In this document: positions 1,839-10,743 of the stretch, piece by piece
How positions within the stretch are numbered: the first letter of the stretch is position 1
Layout: each line of letters opens with the position of its first letter
NCBI GenBank assembly: GCA_905234855.1
Contig: CAJOIU010000012.1
Location: 1 to 47,027 of the forward strand
Length of the DNA stretch: 47,027 bases
Direction of reading: 5' to 3'
DNA from: an uncultured Oscillospiraceae bacterium
GTDB taxonomy: Bacteria; Bacillota; Clostridia; Oscillospirales; Oscillospiraceae
The notes under the pieces: generated by a model
Seen by the model: only the letters and a program-made list of their open reading frames with translations
Databases searched by the model: none
What the model was told of the DNA's origin: nothing
Position numbers and translations under genes: made by a program

Positions 1839-3431
1839 ATGAATAAAACCCTAAAATCCGTGATCGCCGTGTTCCTCGCACTGGTCATCAGTCTGCTCAT
1901 CGTGGTATCCACCGTGCTGATCCTTCCGCCGCAGTTCAGCCATCTGTATCTGGGCGAGCTGGCGGACAAATATGCCCGTCTGCGCAGCTTCGACGAGCAG
2001 AACAAGATCGTCATCATCGGCGGCAGCAGCGTCGCCTTCGGCATCAACTCCCAGATGATCGAGGAGACCCTCGGCATCCCCGCAGTGAATTTCGGCCTCT
2101 ATGGCCCCCTCGGCACCGCCATCATGATGGATCTCACCCGCGGTCATATAAACGAGGGCGATATCGTTATCCTCGCGCCGGAGACAGACCATCAGACCAT
2201 GTCGATGTACTTCAACGGCGAGGGCATGTGGAACTGCTGCGACAGCGATTTCACCATGCTATTCAAGATCCGCGCCCACGACTGGGGCGAGATGCTGGGC
2301 AGCTTCTGGACATATGCCCAGAAAAAATACCAGTTCTTCCTCTACGGCAAGCCCCATCCCGACGGCGTGTATGACCACGACTCCTTCAACGAATACGGCG
2401 ATATCATCTTCACCCGCACGGCGCCGGTCATGGAGGACTGGTACGATACGGAGGTGCTGGTGGATCTCGATCCCTCCATCATCGACGACGATTACCTCGA
2501 TTATATCAACGACTATATCGCCTACTGCAAACGGCAGGGCGCCACGGTCTATTTCTCATGGCCGCCCATGAACGCGCTGGCCGTGCAGCAGGATCTTTCC
2601 GGCATCCTCGCCTATGCCACCTATGTGCGGGAGCGGGTGGATTGTCAGGTCATATCCAATATCACCGACTATATCATGGCTCCCGGGTATTTCTACGACA
2701 CGAACTACCATGTCACCGACCGGGGCGTGATCGACCATACCGCCCGGCTCATTCAGGATCTGCAGAACTTCATGGGCGACGGCTCTCGGGTCGATATCGT
2801 CATCCCCGCGCCGCCCATCGCAGAGAACCCCGGCTTCAGCGGCGAGCCCATGCGTACCCCCGGCGGTATGCCCATGCCGCAGGGCCGCAACAGCGCCAAC
2901 GCCGCCCAGTTCAGCCCCCCGGCAGCGCATGGCGGGATTGACGCCGAAACCGAAGCCGAGCCCGAAACAGCGGCTGAGCCCACGCCCACCCCGGTTCCCA
3001 CGCCGGAGGTCGTCGGGTCGAGCCGGGACGCGGAATACTTCCTCACGGATTCCTTTACCGAAGGCCTCATGATCGTCGGTGTCACCGACGAGGGCAAAGC
3101 CCAGACCTCCCTCGAGGTGCCTTGGCTCATCGGCGGCGAGAAGGTCGTGGCCATCGGTGAGAACGCCTTTGAGGACTGCGACAGCCTGCGGAGCATCTAT
3201 ATCCAGAAAAACATTAACCGCATCATGCAGGGCGCCTTCGACAACTGCCCGCGCCTGACGGAGATCCATATCGACAACGATTCCGGCGCGAACATCCTCG
3301 TTCCCGGCGCCGGCCTGTTCGATAACGTCCCCTCCCGCGTGAAGGTCTATGTCCCCGCCAGCAGCTACGGTATGTTCCTCGCGGACTATTTCTGGGGCAA
3401 CTATATGGATCGCCTCGAACGGGAGAGCTGA
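1839..3431 (+). CDS. membrane-anchored SGNH/DltD-like protein with C-terminal leucine-rich repeat domain
   Basis: A 530-residue protein with an N-terminal signal anchor (about residues 7-30). The next part resembles the SGNH-fold partner proteins (DltD/AlgX/AlgJ) of MBOAT systems: a GGSSVAFGIN motif with the putative nucleophile at Ser63 and a D-x-x-Y-H-V-T-D stretch near residues 285-293 that would supply Asp and His. After a Pro/Thr-rich linker (TPTPVPTPEV, about 380-390) comes a BspA-like LRR_5 segment (about 395-525) with the typical IGENAFEDC...L..I.I...I..I..GAF..C pattern. The gene has a good AGGAGG site and follows the MBOAT gene by 12 bases. The C-terminal LRR module on an acylation partner is unusual and may bind the polymer or a surface protein. 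Transferase or esterase direction is not decidable. Confidence 0.8.
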   Translation: MNKTLKSVIAVFLALVISLLIVVSTVLILPPQFSHLYLGELADKYARLRSFDEQNKIVIIGGSSVAFGINSQMIEETLGIPAVNFGLYGPLGTAIMMDLTRGHINEGDIVILAPETDHQTMSMYFNGEGMWNCCDSDFTMLFKIRAHDWGEMLGSFWTYAQKKYQFFLYGKPHPDGVYDHDSFNEYGDIIFTRTAPVMEDWYDTEVLVDLDPSIIDDDYLDYINDYIAYCKRQGATVYFSWPPMNALAVQQDLSGILAYATYVRERVDCQVISNITDYIMAPGYFYDTNYHVTDRGVIDHTARLIQDLQNFMGDGSRVDIVIPAPPIAENPGFSGEPMRTPGGMPMPQGRNSANAAQFSPPAAHGGIDAETEAEPETAAEPTPTPVPTPEVVGSSRDAEYFLTDSFTEGLMIVGVTDEGKAQTSLEVPWLIGGEKVVAIGENAFEDCDSLRSIYIQKNINRIMQGAFDNCPRLTEIHIDNDSGANILVPGAGLFDNVPSRVKVYVPASSYGMFLADYFWGNYMDRLERES

Positions 3432-3458
3432 CCGCCCCTTGCCGAGCATAAAAAAAGA

Positions 3459-3487
3459 TTGACATTTCCCTCGAATGACTATATAAT
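3459..3487 (+). promoter_or_regulatory. SigA promoter of the aromatic operon
   Basis: TTGACA at 3459-3464 and TATAAT at 3482-3487 with exactly 17 bases between them: a perfect consensus promoter. Transcription should start near 3494, about 27 bases before the leader peptide start, leaving a leader of roughly 200 bases before aroF. Confidence 0.92.
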
Positions 3488-3520
3488 TCTTTCGTAATTT
3501 AAATTAAAGGGGATTTCAAC

Positions 3521-3577
3521 GTGAATCGCTTCTTCTTCGGCAGCTATGATTCCTACTATTACTTCCGTCAAAAGTAA
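3521..3577 (+). CDS. Phe/Tyr-rich leader peptide of the aromatic operon
   Basis: A short frame starting with GTG, eight bases after an AAAGGGG ribosome binding site (3507-3512), encodes MNRFFFGSYDSYYYFRQK and ends at TAA. Of 18 residues 4 are Phe and 4 are Tyr, with runs FFF (residues 4-6) and YYYF (12-15); there is no Trp. The gene downstream is DAHP synthase, whose isoenzymes are commonly controlled by Phe and Tyr. The layout matches the leader peptides of trp, phe and his operons: ribosomes starved for charged tRNA-Phe or tRNA-Tyr would stall on these codons. The peptide itself is probably without function after synthesis. Confidence 0.88.
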   Translation: MNRFFFGSYDSYYYFRQK

Positions 3578-3640
3578 TAGCGTTTTTGTGTTGCCGAAAA
3601 AGCGATCCGTCCAAGCCAATCAACCACCGCCGTGCAGCAC
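3525..3640 (+). promoter_or_regulatory. attenuator pause hairpin and antiterminator segments
   Basis: Hairpin 1:2 pairs TTCGGCAGC (3536-3544, in the leader peptide) with GTTGCCGAA (3590-3598) and ATCGCTT (3525-3531) with AAGCGAT (3600-3606), 16 pairs around a small internal loop. The alternative hairpin 2:3 pairs GTGTTGC (3588-3594) with GCAGCAC (3634-3640), which is the left arm of the terminator. Stalling at the Phe or Tyr codons would mask segment 1, free segment 2 and block the terminator; a ribosome at the stop codon (3575-3577) would reach into segment 2 and allow termination. Pairings were read by eye; the 7-pair antiterminator is the weakest part. Confidence 0.75.
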
Positions 3641-3661
3641 CGCCCGCTGCACGGCTTTTTT
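3629..3661 (+). terminator. intrinsic terminator of the aromatic leader (attenuator)
   Basis: A perfect 10-base-pair stem, GCCGTGCAGC (3629-3638) with GCTGCACGGC (3646-3655), a 7-base loop, and six T (3656-3661). It lies between the leader peptide and aroF with no gene of its own to end, so it must act as a conditional terminator. Confidence 0.92.
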
Positions 3662-3701
3662 ATTCCGTGTCCCCGATGCGAGAAAAGGAGTGTTCCGTCT
3701 C

Positions 3702-4706
3702 ATGATCACCGTATTGAAATCCAGCGCTACCGCCGAGCAGCGCGATCAGCTCATCCGCTGGCTGGAAGGCCAGAACGTGCAGGTCCATATCTCCGAGGGC
3801 AGCGAGTATACCGTCCTCGGCCTCGTGGGCGATACCGCCCATATCGACATGGAGCTTCTGGAAAGCCTCGACATCGTCGATTCCGTCAAGCGGGTGAGCG
3901 AGCCCTTCAAAAAGGTCAACCGCAAGTTCCACCCCGACGATTCCGTGATCGACGCGGGAGGCGTTCTCATCGGCGGCGGACATTTCGCCGTGATCGCCGG
4001 TCCCTGCTCCGTGGAGACCCGGGAGCAGATCATCGGCGTGGCGCATGCCGTCAAAGCCAGCGGCGCGGCGCTTTTGCGCGGCGGCGCGTTCAAGCCCCGC
4101 ACCTCGCCCTACGATTTTCAAGGCCTCCACGGTGAGGGACTGACGCTCCTCCTCGAGGCGAAAAAAGCCACCGGCCTTCCCATCGTCACCGAGCTCATGG
4201 ACATGCAGGACTTCGATCTGTTCGAAGATGTGGACGTGATCCAAGTCGGCGCGCGGAACATGCAGAACTTCGGCATGCTCAAAAAGCTCGGCCGCACCGA
4301 TAAAACGATCCTGCTCAAGCGGGGTCTTGCCAACTCCATCAAGGAGCTGCTCATGAGCGCCGAATACATCATGGCTGGGGGCAACGAAAACGTGATCCTC
4401 TGCGAGCGGGGCATCCGCACCTTCGAGACCTATACCCGCAACACGCTGGATATCTCCGCCGTGCCCGTGCTGCATGAGCTGACGCACCTCCCGGTCATCA
4501 TCGACCCGAGCCACGCCACAGGACACGCGAGCCTCGTTCCCTCCATGGCGCTTGCCGCCGCCGCCTGCGGCGCGGACGGCCTCATGATCGAGGTGCACAA
4601 CGACCCCATCCACGCCCTGTGCGACGGCGCGCAGTCCCTCACCCCCGCGCAGTTTGACGAGCTGATGGGGCAGGTGCGCCGCATTCTGGAGGTCGTTCGG
4701 TCATGA
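3702..4706 (+). CDS. aroF: 3-deoxy-7-phosphoheptulonate (DAHP) synthase, type I-beta with N-terminal regulatory domain
   Basis: Condenses phosphoenolpyruvate with erythrose 4-phosphate, the first step of aromatic biosynthesis. The start is ATG at 3702, eleven bases after AAAAGGAG (3683-3690); upstream in-frame codons run through the terminator hairpin and are not coding. The 334-residue product has an N-terminal ferredoxin-like domain (about residues 1-75), as in the Thermotoga maritima enzyme where it mediates feedback inhibition by Tyr and Phe, followed by the catalytic barrel. Visible family motifs are FAVIAGPCSVE, LLRGGAFKPRTSPYDFQG, VDVIQVGARNMQNF, ILLKRG and HLPVIIDPSHATGH. Thus both transcription (leader) and enzyme activity appear tuned to Phe/Tyr. 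It overlaps tyrA by four bases. Confidence 0.95.
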   Translation: MITVLKSSATAEQRDQLIRWLEGQNVQVHISEGSEYTVLGLVGDTAHIDMELLESLDIVDSVKRVSEPFKKVNRKFHPDDSVIDAGGVLIGGGHFAVIAGPCSVETREQIIGVAHAVKASGAALLRGGAFKPRTSPYDFQGLHGEGLTLLLEAKKATGLPIVTELMDMQDFDLFEDVDVIQVGARNMQNFGMLKKLGRTDKTILLKRGLANSIKELLMSAEYIMAGGNENVILCERGIRTFETYTRNTLDISAVPVLHELTHLPVIIDPSHATGHASLVPSMALAAAACGADGLMIEVHNDPIHALCDGAQSLTPAQFDELMGQVRRILEVVRS

Positions 4707-5536
4707 CGGTCGGTATCGTTGGCCTCGGCCTCATCGGCGGCTCGCTCGCCAAGGCGTATCAGCGGGACGGGAGCGTCACCGTCCTCGGCTGCGCCCGCAC
4801 GGAAAAGACGGAGCAATTCGCCCTGCTCGCGGAGGATATCGACGGCATCCTGACCCCGGATCGGCTGGCGGAATGCGACCTCGTGCTGCTGGCTGCCTAT
4901 CCGGAGGCATGCATCGAGTATATGCGCCAAAACGCCGACCGTTTCTCCAAAACCGGCATCGTGATGGACTGCTGCGGCACGAAAAAAGCCATATGCGAGA
5001 TCGCCTTCCCACTCGCGTCAGAGCATGGCTTCACCTTTGTGGGCGGGCATCCCATGGCGGGAACGCAGTTTTCCGGCCTCAAATACGCCAAGGCGACGCT
5101 TTTCGACCGCGCGCCCATGGTCATCGTGCCGCCCGCCTTTGACGATATCGCGTTCCTCGCCCGGGTCAAGGCGCTTTTGAAGCCCGCGGGCTTCGGGCGC
5201 ATCAGCGTGACTACCGCCGAGCAGCACGACGAGATGATCGCCTTCACCTCGCAGATGTGTCATGTGGTTTCGAACGCCTATATCAAGAGTCCCACCGCCG
5301 GACGGCATAAGGGCTTCTCCGCCGGCAGCTACCGCGACCTCACCCGCGTGGCATGGCTGAACCCCGATATGTGGGCGGAGCTCATCATGGAGAACCGCCG
5401 GAACATGCTGGAGGAGCTGGACTGCCTCATTGGCAATCTCATGCAATACCGGGACGCCATCGAGGAAGGCGACCGAGAGGGACTGCGGCAGCTTCTCGAC
5501 GAGGGCAGGCGCAGAAAGGAGCAGATCGACGGATGA
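4703..5536 (+). CDS. tyrA: prephenate dehydrogenase
   Basis: Oxidatively decarboxylates prephenate to 4-hydroxyphenylpyruvate, the tyrosine branch. The 277-residue protein opens with the nucleotide-binding VGIVGLGLIGGSLAKAY and shows the family stretch FVGGHPMAGTQFSGLKYA and later QMCHVVSNAY. The length corresponds to a catalytic domain without a C-terminal ACT domain, so direct allosteric control is not obvious. ATGA overlaps join it to aroF before and aroB after. It sits as second gene, ahead of the pathway common to all aromatics; no prephenate dehydratase for the Phe branch is in the window. Confidence 0.93.
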   Translation: MTVGIVGLGLIGGSLAKAYQRDGSVTVLGCARTEKTEQFALLAEDIDGILTPDRLAECDLVLLAAYPEACIEYMRQNADRFSKTGIVMDCCGTKKAICEIAFPLASEHGFTFVGGHPMAGTQFSGLKYAKATLFDRAPMVIVPPAFDDIAFLARVKALLKPAGFGRISVTTAEQHDEMIAFTSQMCHVVSNAYIKSPTAGRHKGFSAGSYRDLTRVAWLNPDMWAELIMENRRNMLEELDCLIGNLMQYRDAIEEGDREGLRQLLDEGRRRKEQIDG

Positions 5537-6594
5537 AGATCATCCATGTTCCCACCTCGACGCCGTATGACGTGGAGATCGGCGCGGACGCTCTTTCGCT
5601 GGCGGGCAAGCGTATCCGCCGTCTCTGCCCCAAGGCGGAGCGGATCGCCGTCGTTTCGGACGACATCGTGTTCCCTCTGCACGGCGAAAAGCTCATGGCA
5701 AGCCTCGCCGCCGCGGGACTCGACGCGGAAAGCTATATCCTGCCCCACGGCGAGGCGTCCAAGAACGCCCAGACGCTCATTGGGCTTCTGAATTATCTGA
5801 CGGAACGGCATATCACCCGCTCCGATGCGCTCATCGCCCTCGGCGGCGGCGTCGTTGGCGATCTGACCGGCTTTGCCGCCGCGGTTTATATGCGCGGCAT
5901 CGCCTATATCCAATGCCCTACCACGCTTCTGTCCGCCGTGGATTCCTCCGTCGGCGGCAAGACCGCCGTGGATCTTCCCGCCGGGAAGAATCTCATGGGC
6001 GCATTCTGGCAGCCGCGCTGCGTCCTGTGCGACACGGACGCGCTGGAAACGCTGCCGGGGAGCATCCTCGAGGACGGCTGCGCGGAGGTCGTCAAGACCG
6101 CGCTGCTGTTCGATCCGCCCCTCTTCGGTCTGCTCGGACGGGAGGGAAAGAACTTTGACCGGGAGCATGTCATCGCCCGCTGTGTTTCCCATAAGCGGGA
6201 TATCGTCGCGGAGGACGAATACGACACCGGGCGGCGGGGGCTTCTGAACCTCGGCCATACCCTCGGCCATGCGCTGGAGGCGTGCAGCGATTTTGCCCTC
6301 TCCCACGGCCGCGCCGTCGCCATCGGCACCGCAGCCGTATGCCGCGCCTCGGCCAAGGCCGGCTTCTGCGATCCATGGCTTCCGGCGGAGATAAGCCGCG
6401 TCCTGTCGCTGTTCGGTCTGCCGACGGAAACGGATATGCCCATCGATCGGCTCATGCCCGCCATGCTCAGCGACAAAAAGCGCGCGGGCTCTCTTGTGAA
6501 CGTCGTGGTGCCGGAGCGCGTGGGCAAAAGCTCGCTGCGTCCCATGGACGCGGCGCAGCTCAAGGAATTTATGGAATCGGGACTGAAATCATGA
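5533..6594 (+). CDS. aroB: 3-dehydroquinate synthase
   Basis: Cyclises DAHP to 3-dehydroquinate using NAD and a divalent metal. The start at 5533 (ATGA overlap with tyrA) gives 353 residues, normal for AroB; longer upstream frames only read through tyrA. Family motifs include LPHGEASKNAQTL, ALGGGVVGDLTGFAAAVYMRGI, CPTTLLSAVDSSVGGKTAVDLP-type sequence, DGCAEVVKTALL, and GLLNLGHTLGHALE, the last with metal-binding histidines. It overlaps aroA by four bases. Confidence 0.95.
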   Translation: MKIIHVPTSTPYDVEIGADALSLAGKRIRRLCPKAERIAVVSDDIVFPLHGEKLMASLAAAGLDAESYILPHGEASKNAQTLIGLLNYLTERHITRSDALIALGGGVVGDLTGFAAAVYMRGIAYIQCPTTLLSAVDSSVGGKTAVDLPAGKNLMGAFWQPRCVLCDTDALETLPGSILEDGCAEVVKTALLFDPPLFGLLGREGKNFDREHVIARCVSHKRDIVAEDEYDTGRRGLLNLGHTLGHALEACSDFALSHGRAVAIGTAAVCRASAKAGFCDPWLPAEISRVLSLFGLPTETDMPIDRLMPAMLSDKKRAGSLVNVVVPERVGKSSLRPMDAAQLKEFMESGLKS

Positions 6595-7811
6595 AAGCGA
6601 CGATCTATCCCGCCGCCCTCTCGGGCGACATACCGGCCATCGCCTCGAAATCACAGGCGCATCGGCTGCTCATCTGCGCCGCGCTGGCGGACACAGATAC
6701 CGTTGTGCGCTGCGCCACGCTATCGGCAGATATCGAGGCCACGGCGGATTGCCTCCGCGCCCTCGGCGCAAAGATCGCGCGGACGGACGACGCTTTTTTC
6801 GTGGAACCGATCCGCTCTCTGCCTGAAAAGGCCGTCATCGACTGCGGCGAAAGCGGCTCTACCCTGCGCTTTCTGCTGCCCGTGCTCTGCGCCCTCGGCG
6901 TGGACACGACCTTCGTCATGCATGGGCGGCTGCCGGAGCGCCCTCTCTCTCCCCTTTGGGAGGAGCTGGAGCGCCACGGCGCGAGGCTTTCCCGTCCGAC
7001 GCGGGACACCATCGCCGTATCCGGCAGTATCACCGGCGGCGGTTATACGCTGGCGGCGGACGTTTCCTCGCAATTCATCAGCGGATTGCTGTTTTCCCTG
7101 CCCCTCGTGGGCGGCGGGCATATCGCGCTCACCGGCACGCTTGAATCGGCCTCTTATATCGAAATGACCGTGCGGGCGCTGGCTCGCTTCGGCGTGGCCG
7201 CCCGCTTTACGGAGGGCGCGTATGATATCCCCGCCCAAGCGGGCTATGTCTCTCCCGGGGATGTGACCGTGGAGGGCGACTGGTCGAACGCCGCCTTCTG
7301 GATCGCGGCCGACCGCATTCTCGGCGGCACGCTCAATATCACCGGCCTCGACCCGGACTCACCGCAGGGTGACCGCGCGGTCGAAAAAGCCTCGCTGCGG
7401 ATCGCGGCGGGCAGCGCCGTGATCGACTGCCGCGATATCCCCGATCTTGTGCCGGTTTTGAGCGTGCTGGCCGCCGTCAGTCCCGGGCAGACACGGTTCA
7501 TAAACGCAGGCCGCCTGCGCATTAAGGAAAGCGACCGCCTCGCCACCACCGCAGCGCTGCTGACCGCCCTCGGCGGGCAGGTCGAGGAGCTGCCGGAGGG
7601 ATTGAACGTTACAGGCGTTTCCCGTCTTTCCGGCGGCGAGGTAGACAGCGCCAACGACCACCGCATCGCCATGAGCGCCGCCGTCGCCGCGCTGGCATGC
7701 GACGCGCCTGTCATACTGCACGGGGCGCAGGCCGTGAATAAATCCTATCCCGCCTTCTGGACGGATTATCGGCGTCTGGGCGGTCGGGTCGTATTGGAGG
7801 AGGAGCCATGA
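6591..7811 (+). CDS. aroA: 3-phosphoshikimate 1-carboxyvinyltransferase (EPSP synthase)
   Basis: Transfers the enolpyruvyl group of PEP to shikimate 3-phosphate. The start at 6591 overlaps the aroB stop. The 406-residue product is slightly shorter than many homologues (about 425). Visible signatures are SKSQAHRLLICAAL near the N-terminus, DCGESGSTLRFLLPVLCALG (substrate-binding region), FISGLLFSLPL, EGDWSNAAFW, and RLRIKESDRLATTAALL near the C-terminus. Part of the tightly overlapping aromatic operon. Confidence 0.95.
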   Translation: MKATIYPAALSGDIPAIASKSQAHRLLICAALADTDTVVRCATLSADIEATADCLRALGAKIARTDDAFFVEPIRSLPEKAVIDCGESGSTLRFLLPVLCALGVDTTFVMHGRLPERPLSPLWEELERHGARLSRPTRDTIAVSGSITGGGYTLAADVSSQFISGLLFSLPLVGGGHIALTGTLESASYIEMTVRALARFGVAARFTEGAYDIPAQAGYVSPGDVTVEGDWSNAAFWIAADRILGGTLNITGLDPDSPQGDRAVEKASLRIAAGSAVIDCRDIPDLVPVLSVLAAVSPGQTRFINAGRLRIKESDRLATTAALLTALGGQVEELPEGLNVTGVSRLSGGEVDSANDHRIAMSAAVAALACDAPVILHGAQAVNKSYPAFWTDYRRLGGRVVLEEEP

Positions 7812-8812
7812 GCAACACCATCGGCACCCGATACCGCTTCACGATCTGGGGTCAATCCCATGCCCCCGCCATCGGAGTGACCATAGAAGGACTTCCCGCG
7901 GGCTTTGAGCCGGACATGGACGCCCTTGCCGCCTTTCTCCAGCGCCGCGCGCCGGGAAACGGCCCGTTTTCCACGCCCCGCAAGGAGGCGGACGCGCCGG
8001 AGTTCATCGCCGGCCTCGTGGACGGGCATACCTGCGGCGCTCCCGTGACCGCTCTTATCCGAAACACCAACATACGCTCGGCTGATTACGACGCGCTGCG
8101 CCGCATCCCCCGTCCCGGTCACGCGGATTATCCCGCGTATGTGAAATACGGGGACGCCCGTGACGTAGCGGGCGGCGGGCAGTTTTCCGGACGTCTCACC
8201 GCGCCGCTGTGCATCGCGGGCGGACTGGCACTCCAGCTTCTCGCAAAAGAGGACGTATCCATCCGCGCCCGGATCGTCTCCATCGGCGGCGAGAGCGAGC
8301 CGGAGGCCATGCAGCGCCGCATGGCAGAGGCCAAGGCTGCGGGCGATTCCGTCGGAGGCGTGATCGAATGCATATGCGAGGGCGTCCCCGCCGGTCTCGG
8401 CGAGCCGATGTTCGGCGGCATGGAAAACCGCATCGCCCAAACCGTTTTCGGAATCCCCGCCGTGAAGGGGATCGAGTTCGGCGCGGGCTTTGCCGCGGCC
8501 GCGATGCGCGGAAGTGAAAACAACGACCCCTACTATTACGACGCGGAGGGCACCGTCCGCACCCGGACAAACCACGCCGGCGGCATTCTGGGCGGCATCA
8601 CCACGGGCATGCCCATCGTGTTCCGCGCCGCCGTGAAGCCGACGCCGTCTATCTCCGCTGAGCAGGACAGCGTTGATCTCCTGTCTGTGCGGAACGCCAA
8701 GCTCTCGGTGCAGGGGCGGCATGACCCGTGCATCGTCCCGCGTGCCGTTCCCTGCATGGAGGCGGCCGCCGCCGCCGCTGTTTACGACGCATTGCTGGAA
8801 AGTCGAGGATAA
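7808..8812 (+). CDS. aroC: chorismate synthase
   Basis: Eliminates phosphate from EPSP to form chorismate, with reduced FMN. The 334-residue product carries the family signatures GTRYRFTIWGQSHAPAIGV at the start, RPGHADYPAYVKYG and the C-terminal RHDPCIVPRAVPCMEAA. It is a little shorter than typical (about 350-390 residues) but keeps all recognisable blocks. Overlaps aroA by four bases; the chorismate mutase gene begins two bases after its stop. Confidence 0.95.
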   Translation: MSNTIGTRYRFTIWGQSHAPAIGVTIEGLPAGFEPDMDALAAFLQRRAPGNGPFSTPRKEADAPEFIAGLVDGHTCGAPVTALIRNTNIRSADYDALRRIPRPGHADYPAYVKYGDARDVAGGGQFSGRLTAPLCIAGGLALQLLAKEDVSIRARIVSIGGESEPEAMQRRMAEAKAAGDSVGGVIECICEGVPAGLGEPMFGGMENRIAQTVFGIPAVKGIEFGAGFAAAAMRGSENNDPYYYDAEGTVRTRTNHAGGILGGITTGMPIVFRAAVKPTPSISAEQDSVDLLSVRNAKLSVQGRHDPCIVPRAVPCMEAAAAAAVYDALLESRG

Positions 8813-8814
8813 TT

Positions 8815-9090
8815 ATGGAACTATCGGAGCTTCGCGCGCAGATCGATACGATCGACCGACAGCTCATCGAGCTATTGGAAAAACGCATGGACGTCGCCGC
8901 GGGCGTCGCCGCCTATAAGGCCGGGCGCGGCCTGCCCGTGCTGGACGCGGCACGGGAGACGGAAAAGCTCGCCGCCGTGGAGGCGCAATGCCGCCCCGAG
9001 ACGGCCAAGCCCCTGCGGGGTGTATTCGAGGCCGTGATAGCCGCTAGCCGCGCCTATCAGGCGGCGCTCATGGAGAAAAACCATGGCTGA
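8815..9090 (+). CDS. chorismate mutase, AroQ type
   Basis: A 91-residue all-helical AroQ-class chorismate mutase that converts chorismate to prephenate. The opening LRAQIDTIDRQLIELLEKRMDVAAGVAAYKAGRGLPVLDAARE is the classical first helix and loop with the active-site Arg, Lys and Asp/Arg positions. It is free-standing, whereas many bacteria fuse it to DAHP synthase, prephenate dehydratase or dehydrogenase. It starts two bases after aroC and overlaps the next gene by eight bases. Confidence 0.92.
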   Translation: MELSELRAQIDTIDRQLIELLEKRMDVAAGVAAYKAGRGLPVLDAARETEKLAAVEAQCRPETAKPLRGVFEAVIAASRAYQAALMEKNHG

Positions 9091-10306
9091 GAGATTCGGA
9101 CTTCTGGGCCGCACTCTCGGCCATAGCTGGTCGCCGCAGATCCATACGCTCCTGTGCGGCTACCCGTATGACCTCTACGAGGTCGAGCCGGAGGCGCTGC
9201 CGCGGTTCCTCGCCGAGACGGAGCTTTCCGGGATGAATGTGACGATCCCGTATAAAAAAGCCGTCGTCCCCTTCTGTACCTCGCTTTCGGACGCGGCGCG
9301 CAGCATCGGCAGCGTGAACACCCTCGTACGCACGCCGGATGGCTGGTACGGCGACAACACCGACTATGCAGGCTTCATCGCCATGACGGAGGAATGCGGC
9401 GTTTCCGTGCGGGGAAAAAAGACGCTCGTATTCGGCTCCGGCGGCGCTTCCCTTGCCGTGATCGCCGCCCTGCGGGATCTGGGGGCGGAACCCATCGTAA
9501 ACATCTCCCGCTCCGGCGCGGACAATTATGAAAATCTTGACCGCCATGCCAACGCGAAGATCCTTGTGAACACGACGCCGCTGGGCATGGTACCGAACAC
9601 CGGCGTCTCACCGGTTTCGCTGGAGGCCTTCCCTGTATGCGAGGCCGTGCTGGACGTGGTATACAACCCTGCCCGCACCCGGCTTCTCATGGATGCGGAG
9701 GCGAGAGGTATCCCCCACGCAGGGGGGCTTACGATGCTCGTGGCACAGGCGCGGCGCAGCGCCGAACAGTTTGCCCGAACCGATATTCCCTCTTCGCGCG
9801 TGGGGGAGATCGCCGAGCTCCTGCGGCGGCAGATGCAGAATATCATCCTAATCGGCATGCCCGGATGCGGGAAAACCAGCGTAGGTCAGCGCCTTGCCCG
9901 GCTTGCCGGACGACCCTTCATCGACGTGGACGCGGTCATTACCGAGCTGGCGGGCATGACCATCCCGGAGATCTTCGCCATAGAGGGCGAGGTGGGCTTC
10001 CGCCAGCGGGAGACGGCGGTGCTTTCGGAGCTGGGCAAGGGCTCCGGCGCGGTCATCGCCACCGGCGGAGGCTGCGTCACACGGGAGGAAAATTACCCGC
10101 TGCTGCACCAAAACGGTGTGATCGTCTGGCTGCGGCGCGCGCTTTCCGCGCTTCCCACCGACGGGCGGCCTCTTTCGCAGAAAAACTCCGCCGAGTCGCT
10201 GTATGCCCAGCGGAAGGAGAAATACGCCGCCTTTGCCGATCTCACCGTGGAAAACGACGGGATCGTCGACGAGGCCGCAGCCAAGATATGGGAGGAACTG
10301 TCATGA
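9083..10306 (+). CDS. bifunctional shikimate dehydrogenase / shikimate kinase
   Basis: A 407-residue fusion of two consecutive pathway enzymes. Residues 1 to about 247 are AroE: GLLGRTLGHSWSPQIH at the N-terminus (shikimate-binding Ser residues), NVTIPYKK with catalytic Lys58, DNTDYAGF with Asp94, and the nucleotide-binding VFGSGGASLAV. Residues from about 252 are AroK: NIILIGMPGCGKTSVG (Walker A, 258-266), DVDAVITE, the FRQRE shikimate-binding Arg region and ATGGGCVTR. No stop or frameshift separates the parts. The product would reduce dehydroshikimate and phosphorylate shikimate in one chain. Overlaps neighbours on both sides (8 and 4 bases). Confidence 0.95.
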   Translation: MAERFGLLGRTLGHSWSPQIHTLLCGYPYDLYEVEPEALPRFLAETELSGMNVTIPYKKAVVPFCTSLSDAARSIGSVNTLVRTPDGWYGDNTDYAGFIAMTEECGVSVRGKKTLVFGSGGASLAVIAALRDLGAEPIVNISRSGADNYENLDRHANAKILVNTTPLGMVPNTGVSPVSLEAFPVCEAVLDVVYNPARTRLLMDAEARGIPHAGGLTMLVAQARRSAEQFARTDIPSSRVGEIAELLRRQMQNIILIGMPGCGKTSVGQRLARLAGRPFIDVDAVITELAGMTIPEIFAIEGEVGFRQRETAVLSELGKGSGAVIATGGGCVTREENYPLLHQNGVIVWLRRALSALPTDGRPLSQKNSAESLYAQRKEKYAAFADLTVENDGIVDEAAAKIWEELS

Positions 10307-10743
10307 AGCTGCTGTTTTTGAACGGCCCCAATCTCAATATGCTGAGCATCCGTGAGCCGGATATCTACGGTCGGCAGACCTATAGCGATTTGGAGAACTT
10401 CATCCGTGCCGAATGCGCAAAGCGAGGCGTGGAATGCGAGATCTATCAGTCGAACCATGAGGGCGTGCTGGTAGATATGATCCAAGCGGCCTACGGAGCG
10501 GTGGACGGCATCGTCATAAATCCCGCCGCGTATACGCATACCAGCGTTGCCATCCTCGACGCCTTGAAGGCCGTGGCGCTGCCCGCCGTGGAGGTACATC
10601 TTTCCGACGTGAGCGCCCGGGAGGCGTTTCGCCATATCTCCTACGCGGGCATGGCCTGCGAGAAGACCTACGCGGGCTTCGGCTTCGACGGCTACCGCAT
10701 GGCGATCGAATACCTCATGGAGCATCACGGCGGGCAGCTTTAA
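10303..10743 (+). CDS. aroQ: 3-dehydroquinate dehydratase, type II
   Basis: Dehydrates 3-dehydroquinate to 3-dehydroshikimate. The 146-residue length and the signatures LLFLNGPNLNMLSIREPDIYG, YQSNHEGVLVDMIQ, VINPAAYTHTSVAILDAL and VEVHLSDVSAREAFR-type sequence are those of the dodecameric type II enzyme; catalytic Tyr and His positions are present. It starts inside the aroE-aroK stop (ATGA) and is the last gene of the operon. No clear intrinsic terminator follows, so some read-through into the next gene is possible. Confidence 0.96.
   Translation: MKLLFLNGPNLNMLSIREPDIYGRQTYSDLENFIRAECAKRGVECEIYQSNHEGVLVDMIQAAYGAVDGIVINPAAYTHTSVAILDALKAVALPAVEVHLSDVSAREAFRHISYAGMACEKTYAGFGFDGYRMAIEYLMEHHGGQL

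Follow-up and report, generated by a model that had tools for sequence, protein, structure and literature searches.

A conserved Phe/Tyr leader peptide, very probably part of a ribosome-mediated attenuator, precedes the shikimate operon of an uncultured Oscillospiraceae bacterium and its relatives in Clostridia

In enterobacteria, the pheL and trpL attenuators consist of a leader ORF rich in codons for the product amino acid, mutually exclusive 1:2, 2:3 and 3:4 hairpins, and a terminator placed before the biosynthetic operon. The textbook control of the aromatic genes of Bacillota is a different one, by TRAP or by T-boxes, which bind the uncharged tRNA directly and need no ORF. Leader peptides have also been described in this phylum, as a His leader of hisS*/hisZ in bacilli (PMC2965389) and as a Leu-rich attenuator in S. 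aureus (PMC5794164). A further motif, uORFC-13-1, lies upstream of aroF and has a uORF with Phe codons and an adjacent terminator, so that attenuation has been proposed for it; in the section devoted to the motif, its 24 representatives, with at least one Phe, come only from Acholeplasma and environmental sequences (PMC8632094).

In this work, we have analysed the region in front of aroF in a stretch of 47,027 nucleotides (the window) from an uncultured Oscillospiraceae bacterium. Our results show that the aroF leader is real and conserved, and that it is very probably a working ribosome-mediated attenuator. Its elements and the genes that follow are collected in Table 1. As the first-pass annotation of this DNA had claimed, the promoter agrees with the consensus at all 12 positions, and the GTG-started leader ORF (VNRFFFGSYDSYYYFRQK) has 4 Phe and 4 Tyr in 18 codons, including FFF and YYYF runs; a second stop, TAG (3578-3580), follows it directly. 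Only one promoter-like site turned up in a scan of positions 3000-4200, where 0.4 would be expected from shuffles. The unaided fold of 3494-3664 (-54.9 kcal/mol, z -5.6, with none of 200 shuffles as stable) contains both the 1:2 hairpin, in which 3523-3544 pair with 3590-3607, and the intrinsic terminator, a 10-bp stem followed by T6 between the leader ORF and aroF. The competing 2:3 antiterminator is formed by 7 bp, GTGTTGC with GCAGCAC. These pairings and the terminator had likewise been proposed from the letters of the window, and they are borne out; what had been overlooked is an inner hairpin of 9 bp, without mismatch, that joins the Tyr-Tyr-Phe codons to the Lys codon and the two stops.

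Table 1. Elements of the aroF leader and genes of the downstream operon, in coordinates of the window
Feature	Position	Strand	Basis
Sigma-70-type promoter, TTGACA-17-TATAAT	3459..3487	+	12/12 consensus matches
Leader ribosome binding site, AAAGGGG	3506..3512	+	sequence
Leader peptide ORF VNRFFFGSYDSYYYFRQK, GTG start	3521..3577	+	sequence; conservation in the genus
Segment 1, left arm of the 1:2 hairpin, codons Asn to Ser8	3523..3544	+	fold; permutation and recoding controls
Inner hairpin, left arm CTATTACTT, Tyr-Tyr-Phe codons	3556..3564	+	fold; paired in 29/29 genus rows
Inner hairpin, right arm AAGTAATAG, Lys-stop-stop	3572..3580	+	fold; genus alignment
Segment 2, antiterminator arm GTGTTGC (3588-3594) and adjoining stretch; 3590-3607 pairs with segment 1	3588..3607	+	fold
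Segment 3, terminator left arm (3629-3638), overlapping the antiterminator partner GCAGCAC (3634-3640)	3629..3640	+	fold, alignment
Segment 4, terminator right arm (3646-3655) and T6 tail (3656-3661)	3646..3661	+	sequence, terminator scan
aroF, DAHP synthase (PRK08673 type)	3702..4706	+	profile match over curated cut-off
tyrA, prephenate dehydrogenase	4703..5536	+	all listed families are such dehydrogenases, each below its cut-off
aroB, 3-dehydroquinate synthase, start inferred	5533..6594	+	over cut-off
aroA, EPSP synthase, start inferred	6591..7811	+	over cut-off
aroC, chorismate synthase	7808..8812	+	over cut-off
Chorismate mutase, start inferred	8815..9090	+	below curated cut-offs
aroE-aroK fusion, shikimate dehydrogenase and shikimate kinase	9083..10306	+	below curated cut-offs
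aroQ, type II 3-dehydroquinate dehydratase, start inferred	10303..10743	+	over cut-off

The eight genes listed, aroF, tyrA, aroB, aroA, aroC, the chorismate mutase gene, aroE-aroK and aroQ, form a predicted operon in which neighbours overlap, with the exception of aroC and the mutase gene, 2 bases apart. Shikimate dehydrogenase and shikimate kinase are joined in one ORF. The complete pathway had been placed under the leader by the first-pass annotation; this is correct for chorismate and the Tyr branch but not for the Phe branch, as pheA of this genome is found at another place (G000:C6). An ORF in frame with aroF (3546-4706), which would give the protein an N-terminal extension, looks incidental; the length of this open frame runs from 335 to 429 aa across the full-length loci of the genus.

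Given the textbook picture, the leader could be of the T-box or TRAP type and its ORF fortuitous, and T-boxes are indeed present in this genus, upstream of trpE. TRAP-regulated leaders carry about eleven closely spaced KAG repeats; in the 211 nt here KAG occurs only 3 times. The aroF leader has no T-box core, and none of the 4227 models of Rfam release 15 matches the window at its gathering threshold; over 3400-3800 four weak matches appear at E up to 1, far below their cut-offs, and none of them is a T-box. The chance that such a leader operates at aroF is, in our view, close to nil. The best of the weak matches on the right strand, the trpB motif RF04312, reaches 26 of 59 bits (E 0.14), mainly from the terminator.

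Of 35 genomes of the genus, counting that of the window, 33 have an aroF match, and a Phe/Tyr leader precedes aroF in all 30 loci fetched from them, that of the window among them, so the arrangement in the window is more than chance. The genus leader can be written approximately as M-x-R-F-F-x-[G/A]-x-Y-Y-x-Y-Y-F-F-x-K, and across the 30 loci its ORF ends 91-150 nt upstream of aroF. From one leader to the next, Phe and Tyr change in place, number and order while the composition stays, and a promoter-like pattern lies upstream of 27 of the 29 leaders aligned (L013, near-identical to L012, was dropped). The covariance model R1, built from these 29 aroF leaders, matches the aroF leader in 32/32 genus genomes whose aroF N-terminus is assembled; 29 of these are its training rows and one more, G016, is near-identical to one of them. 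R1 has no match in G008, with only a C-terminal fragment of aroF, nor in G010, with no aroF match; in G012, also with no aroF match, its sole match is before pheA, and one further match in the genus is the antisense of an aroF leader. Among the relatives, the runs of aromatic codons are kept, as are the alternative pairings, and the pattern that would speak against the attenuator, a terminator retained after loss of the codon runs, was not seen in the genus. The window leader starts with GTG, the other 28 aligned leaders with ATG, and its basal termination may differ. In L002, inspection by eye revealed a strong inverted repeat that separates AAAGGGG, which resembles a ribosome binding site, from the leader ATG.

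Across the 29 genus rows, pairing is kept in 99.5% of cells for the 2:3 arms (GTGYTGC:GCRGCAC) and in 100% for the inner hairpin, versus 26-66% for slid versions. Changes in 2:3 are one-sided only, and a control shuffling the 3' letters scored as high in 500/500 cases, so this comparison does not discriminate. The terminator is paired in 97.6% of cells, with three pairs changed on both sides, and its covariation score was reached by 0/500 shuffles. Segments 1 and 2 vary within the genus; cognate 1:2 duplexes average -17.7 kcal/mol against -14.9 for permuted ones (sd 0.49, 0/1000, with kinship between rows ignored). When the peptide was kept and segment 1 was recoded with random synonyms, drawn evenly and not by codon usage, the ribosome-free RNA formed 2:3 (P > 0.2) in 49% of the 870 variants versus 0/29 real leaders, and in 147 of the 870 the 1:2 pairing was no less stable than in the real leader. 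Codon choice therefore maintains 1:2 beyond what the peptide requires. Both synonyms are used at the free Phe/Tyr codons (49/42, 38/34), and TAT-TAC within the inner hairpin is fixed in 29/29 leaders; amino acid content and pairing both seem to constrain the leader codons.

The effect of a ribosome was modelled by folding the RNA downstream of it at each codon, with transcription halted just past segment 3, at equilibrium and not as kinetics. The mean P(2:3), 0.01 without a ribosome, is 0.96 with the ribosome at the early Phe codons (n=54), 0.91 at Tyr (n=130), 0.93 at the late Phe codons (n=66) and 0.98 at the last codon, and the pooled Phe/Tyr value is stable at 0.92-0.93 over the seven footprints tried. 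The two folding states that the first-pass annotation had called for are thus recovered, 1:2 plus terminator in the free RNA and 2:3 with a ribosome on Phe or Tyr codons. A low P(2:3) throughout was obtained for one exception, L010, a locus with a damaged terminator, in which terminator and antiterminator partner are mutated (TTCAGCAC). In the fold model, 2:3 forms almost wherever the ribosome stalls between the third codon and the last, so that specificity has to come from codon content alone. For a ribosome at the stop, P(2:3) is footprint-dependent and ranges from 0.98 to 0.01 over the seven footprints (0.98, 0.59 and 0.09 with the first free base 11-12, 14 and 15 nt past the A-site start). 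The first stop base lies 12 nt from segment 2 in 28 of 29 genus leaders and 13 nt in the window, which puts a stop-codon ribosome at the edge of covering segment 2. Since 2:3 is shorter than the terminator, antitermination must be kinetic.

We propose, with high confidence, that the aroF leader is a ribosome-mediated transcription attenuator, and that what it senses is charged tRNA-Phe and charged tRNA-Tyr. Transcription would start near 3494. Where no ribosome is present, or once one has been released normally at the stop codon, segment 1 would pair with segment 2, the 3:4 terminator would be free to form, and transcription would end near 3661. When Phe-tRNA or Tyr-tRNA is short, the ribosome would stall in the Phe run or in the Tyr-Tyr-Tyr-Phe run and keep segment 1 unpaired; segment 2 could then pair with segment 3, GTGTTGC with GCAGCAC, the terminator would not form, and the eight-gene operon would be transcribed. 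The inner hairpin is probably a polymerase pause hairpin, by which ribosome and polymerase would be kept in step.

Does the codon content follow the product at other genes? Of the 14 pheA loci of the genus that were read, 7 show a Tyr-free leader with 6-7 Phe; L220 has a weaker one (4 F), and 6, including that of the window's own genome, have none. Among the secondary matches of R1, 17 of 18 lie 349-373 nt before the pheA domain, and the ORF itself was read in 6 of these 17. The leader codons thus match the product both at aroF (Phe and Tyr) and at pheA (Phe only). This bears on the idea that the leader has no amino-acid response at all, being a constitutive terminator or a translation-coupling leader whose ORF aids aroF translation or is a by-product. 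Readthrough could be constant, as such a leader would have it; against it stand the fit of codon content to product at the two genes and a codon choice that keeps 1:2 beyond the needs of the peptide, and coupling would have to act across the 124 nt that separate the leader stop from aroF, with the terminator in between, which is probably too far. We consider this explanation extremely unlikely.

A trpE gene was recovered from 15 of the 35 genus genomes, and not from the assembly of the window's own genome, which is 82.6% complete. Of the 14 trpE loci scanned (L247 was left out for size), 12 have a T-box upstream of the gene, all below Rfam gathering with E 7.5e-9 or better. T-boxes occur in 34/35 genus genomes, with at most 4 matches each and over the cut-off in 20; the one found in the window's genome, just below gathering, precedes an ABC-transporter ATPase gene that appears to resemble metN. 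A leader-like ORF rich in Ile, Leu or Val is missing from 9 of 10 ilvB-type loci (best score 4), and a His-rich ORF from 7/7 hisG loci; the 10 of these 17 loci scanned have no Rfam match. Both ilvB and hisG may be internal to operons, and the absence of leaders is thus weak evidence. An ORF scoring 6 at the second ilvB-type copy of the window's genome (L317) looks like a membrane peptide. Phe/Tyr synthesis is kept in the genus while other pathways are patchy (aroF in 33/35 genomes, but trpE in 15/35, hisG in 7/21 and ilvB over its cut-off in 7/21), all in incomplete assemblies.

Such leaders are not confined to this genus. Sporobacter, Angelakisella, Yanshouia, Aminicella and Emergencia are represented among the best 80 aroF relatives on named contigs, and 54 of the 75 scorable rows derived from them (L035-L110) have a leader, among them Sporobacter termitidis DSM 10068, Angelakisella massiliensis, Yanshouia hominis and Aminicella lysinilytica. 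For the class, 391 genomes were surveyed, 276 of them with aroF at E up to 1e-60, and 99 upstream regions were hand-picked for family spread (45 families) from the better-scoring matches listed. With a leader score threshold of 6, set post hoc, a Phe/Tyr leader is present in 53/99 of these loci and in 31/45 families, versus 20/1980 dinucleotide shuffles (1%), and 46 of the 99 are without one by the score criterion, all counts being among the matches listed. Pooling gave 173 partly redundant loci (L092 and L172, too short, were dropped), of which 107 have a leader (105 distinct leaders; L126 repeats L051). A terminator lies within 140 nt of aroF in 97 of these 107, versus 12 of 48 loci scoring 3 or less; the 18 loci scoring 4-5 stand outside this comparison. 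A terminator arm pairs slightly more stably with the upstream segment of its own locus (-8.56) than with those of others (-7.85, sd 0.21, 0/300, kinship ignored). Between leader and aroF, GTGYTGC occurs in 29/107 leader loci versus 25/2140 shuffles, and TGYTGC in 49/107 versus 181/2140. R1 reaches 9 of 196 class genomes with 10 matches, 8 of them before aroF (the window's own included); of the other two, one lies before a phenylacetate-CoA ligase-like gene and one is without a leader (at L254, an R1 match, no leader ORF is found on the matched strand).

At gathering, Rfam returned nothing in 39 class aroF loci, 20 leaderless and 19 with a leader. Because the T-boxes of the genus often fall below gathering, and the T-box of L206 itself was missed there, a second scan was made of the 20 leaderless loci, at E up to 0.01; it gave no T-box and one doubtful sRNA match. 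Three contigs labelled Treponema, Victivallales and Oligosphaeraceae (L043, L092 and L094) carry an aroF 67-73% identical to that of the window, by misbinning or by transfer; L043 also has a Phe/Tyr leader.

A second leader type with a longer motif, like SWGYFYFSAGYF or GYFCC and sometimes with Trp, was seen in other families of Clostridia, at L179, L180, L187, L188, L192 and L197; the longer motif could mean a constraint on the RNA or peptide arrest. Arrest might be thought of for the aroF leaders in general, in the manner of TnaC: the nascent peptide, with free Phe or Tyr as ligand, and not a lack of charged tRNA, would stall the ribosome. A motif that goes beyond composition, SWGYFYFSAGYF or GYFCC, is common to part of the class (L179, L187 and L192, for example) and would suit it. 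Such an arrest would also turn biosynthesis on when the amino acid is in excess, an inverted logic; the drift of Phe and Tyr positions described above does not suit it either, and the pheA leaders read hold Phe without Tyr, as codon sensing predicts. Arrest is therefore very unlikely, and codon sensing by way of charged tRNA remains the preferred reading.

Leaders also occur before genes of arylacetate metabolism. A Phe-rich leader ORF, with 6 F in 12 codons and no Tyr, precedes paaK at L288 (G087:C53). At L257 (positions 1493-2988, G142:C158), a Phe(/Tyr)-rich ORF, together with a GTGCTGC arm and a terminator, stands before a phenylacetate-CoA ligase-like gene (best match TIGR02155, below its cut-off). 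L288 is one of 20 further paaK loci fetched; of the others, two score 4 and the remainder score 2 or less or have no ORF, so that leaders were found in 2 of the 21 loci looked at (L257 and L288). Salvage of arylacetates into Phe and Tyr may share the attenuator in the genus concerned.

All these leaders could descend from one ancestral Clostridia aromatic-leader family, with Phe/Tyr-rich ORFs and a GTGYTGC-like arm, a small regulon made of the aroF operon, pheA and occasionally phenylacetate-CoA ligase, codons tuned to each product, and Trp left to T-boxes. We put this forward tentatively, as a possibility that falls somewhat short of an even chance; a single origin is weakened by the fact that R1 reaches few other genera and that GTGYTGC is present in only 29 of the 107 leader loci. 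If it were true, ribosome stalling and not the T-box would be the main and ancient control of Phe and Tyr synthesis in Clostridia.

The mechanism that we propose is of a known kind; the Clostridia leaders are a new family, and similar leaders are unexpectedly widespread in the class. A leader-peptide attenuator would here stand before a whole shikimate operon, where a T-box or TRAP is expected for aromatic genes of Bacillota. One genus holds three matched devices, a leader with Phe and Tyr for the common pathway, a Phe-only leader at pheA in part of the species and a T-box at trpE, which makes ribosome stalling and direct tRNA sensing testable against each other within one lineage. The finding also bears on the aromatic metabolism of uncultured relatives, mostly known from gut metagenomes, and the aroF leader is a candidate for a new Rfam family.

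The first-pass annotation had likened the locus to the enteric trp and phe attenuators, and this likeness is well founded, as leader ORF, exclusive 1:2, 2:3 and 3:4 pairings and terminator are all present and kept. What the aroF leader has in common with pheL and trpL is thus an ORF rich in codons for the products, exclusive hairpins and an intrinsic terminator. It differs from them in that two amino acids would be sensed, that the whole shikimate operon lies downstream, that the phylum is another, that the inner hairpin pairs Tyr codons with stop codons, and that the window holds no Rfam match at the cut-off. The T-box (RF00230) also reads tRNA charging before aromatic genes, as at trpE in this genus, but is absent at the aroF leader. 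By its text description, on which our comparison is based, uORFC-13-1 shares the aroF target, the Phe uORF and the terminator with our leader; in contrast, the section on it mentions no Tyr run, and the words Clostridia and Oscillospir- are absent from the main text of that paper (PMC8632094). The device had been thought notable and possibly undescribed in this lineage. Its novelty has to be narrowed in that Bacillota already have ribosome attenuation, reported for the His leader of bacilli (PMC2965389) and proposed for the Phe uORF before aroF in Acholeplasma (PMC8632094). For Clostridia, the literature matches listed, with subscription papers mostly outside their scope, hold no report of Phe/Tyr leader attenuation. 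With the His leader of bacilli and the Leu attenuator of S. aureus, the aroF leader shares leader-peptide attenuation within Bacillota, although those two concern other amino acids, other genes and other lineages (PMC2965389, PMC5794164).
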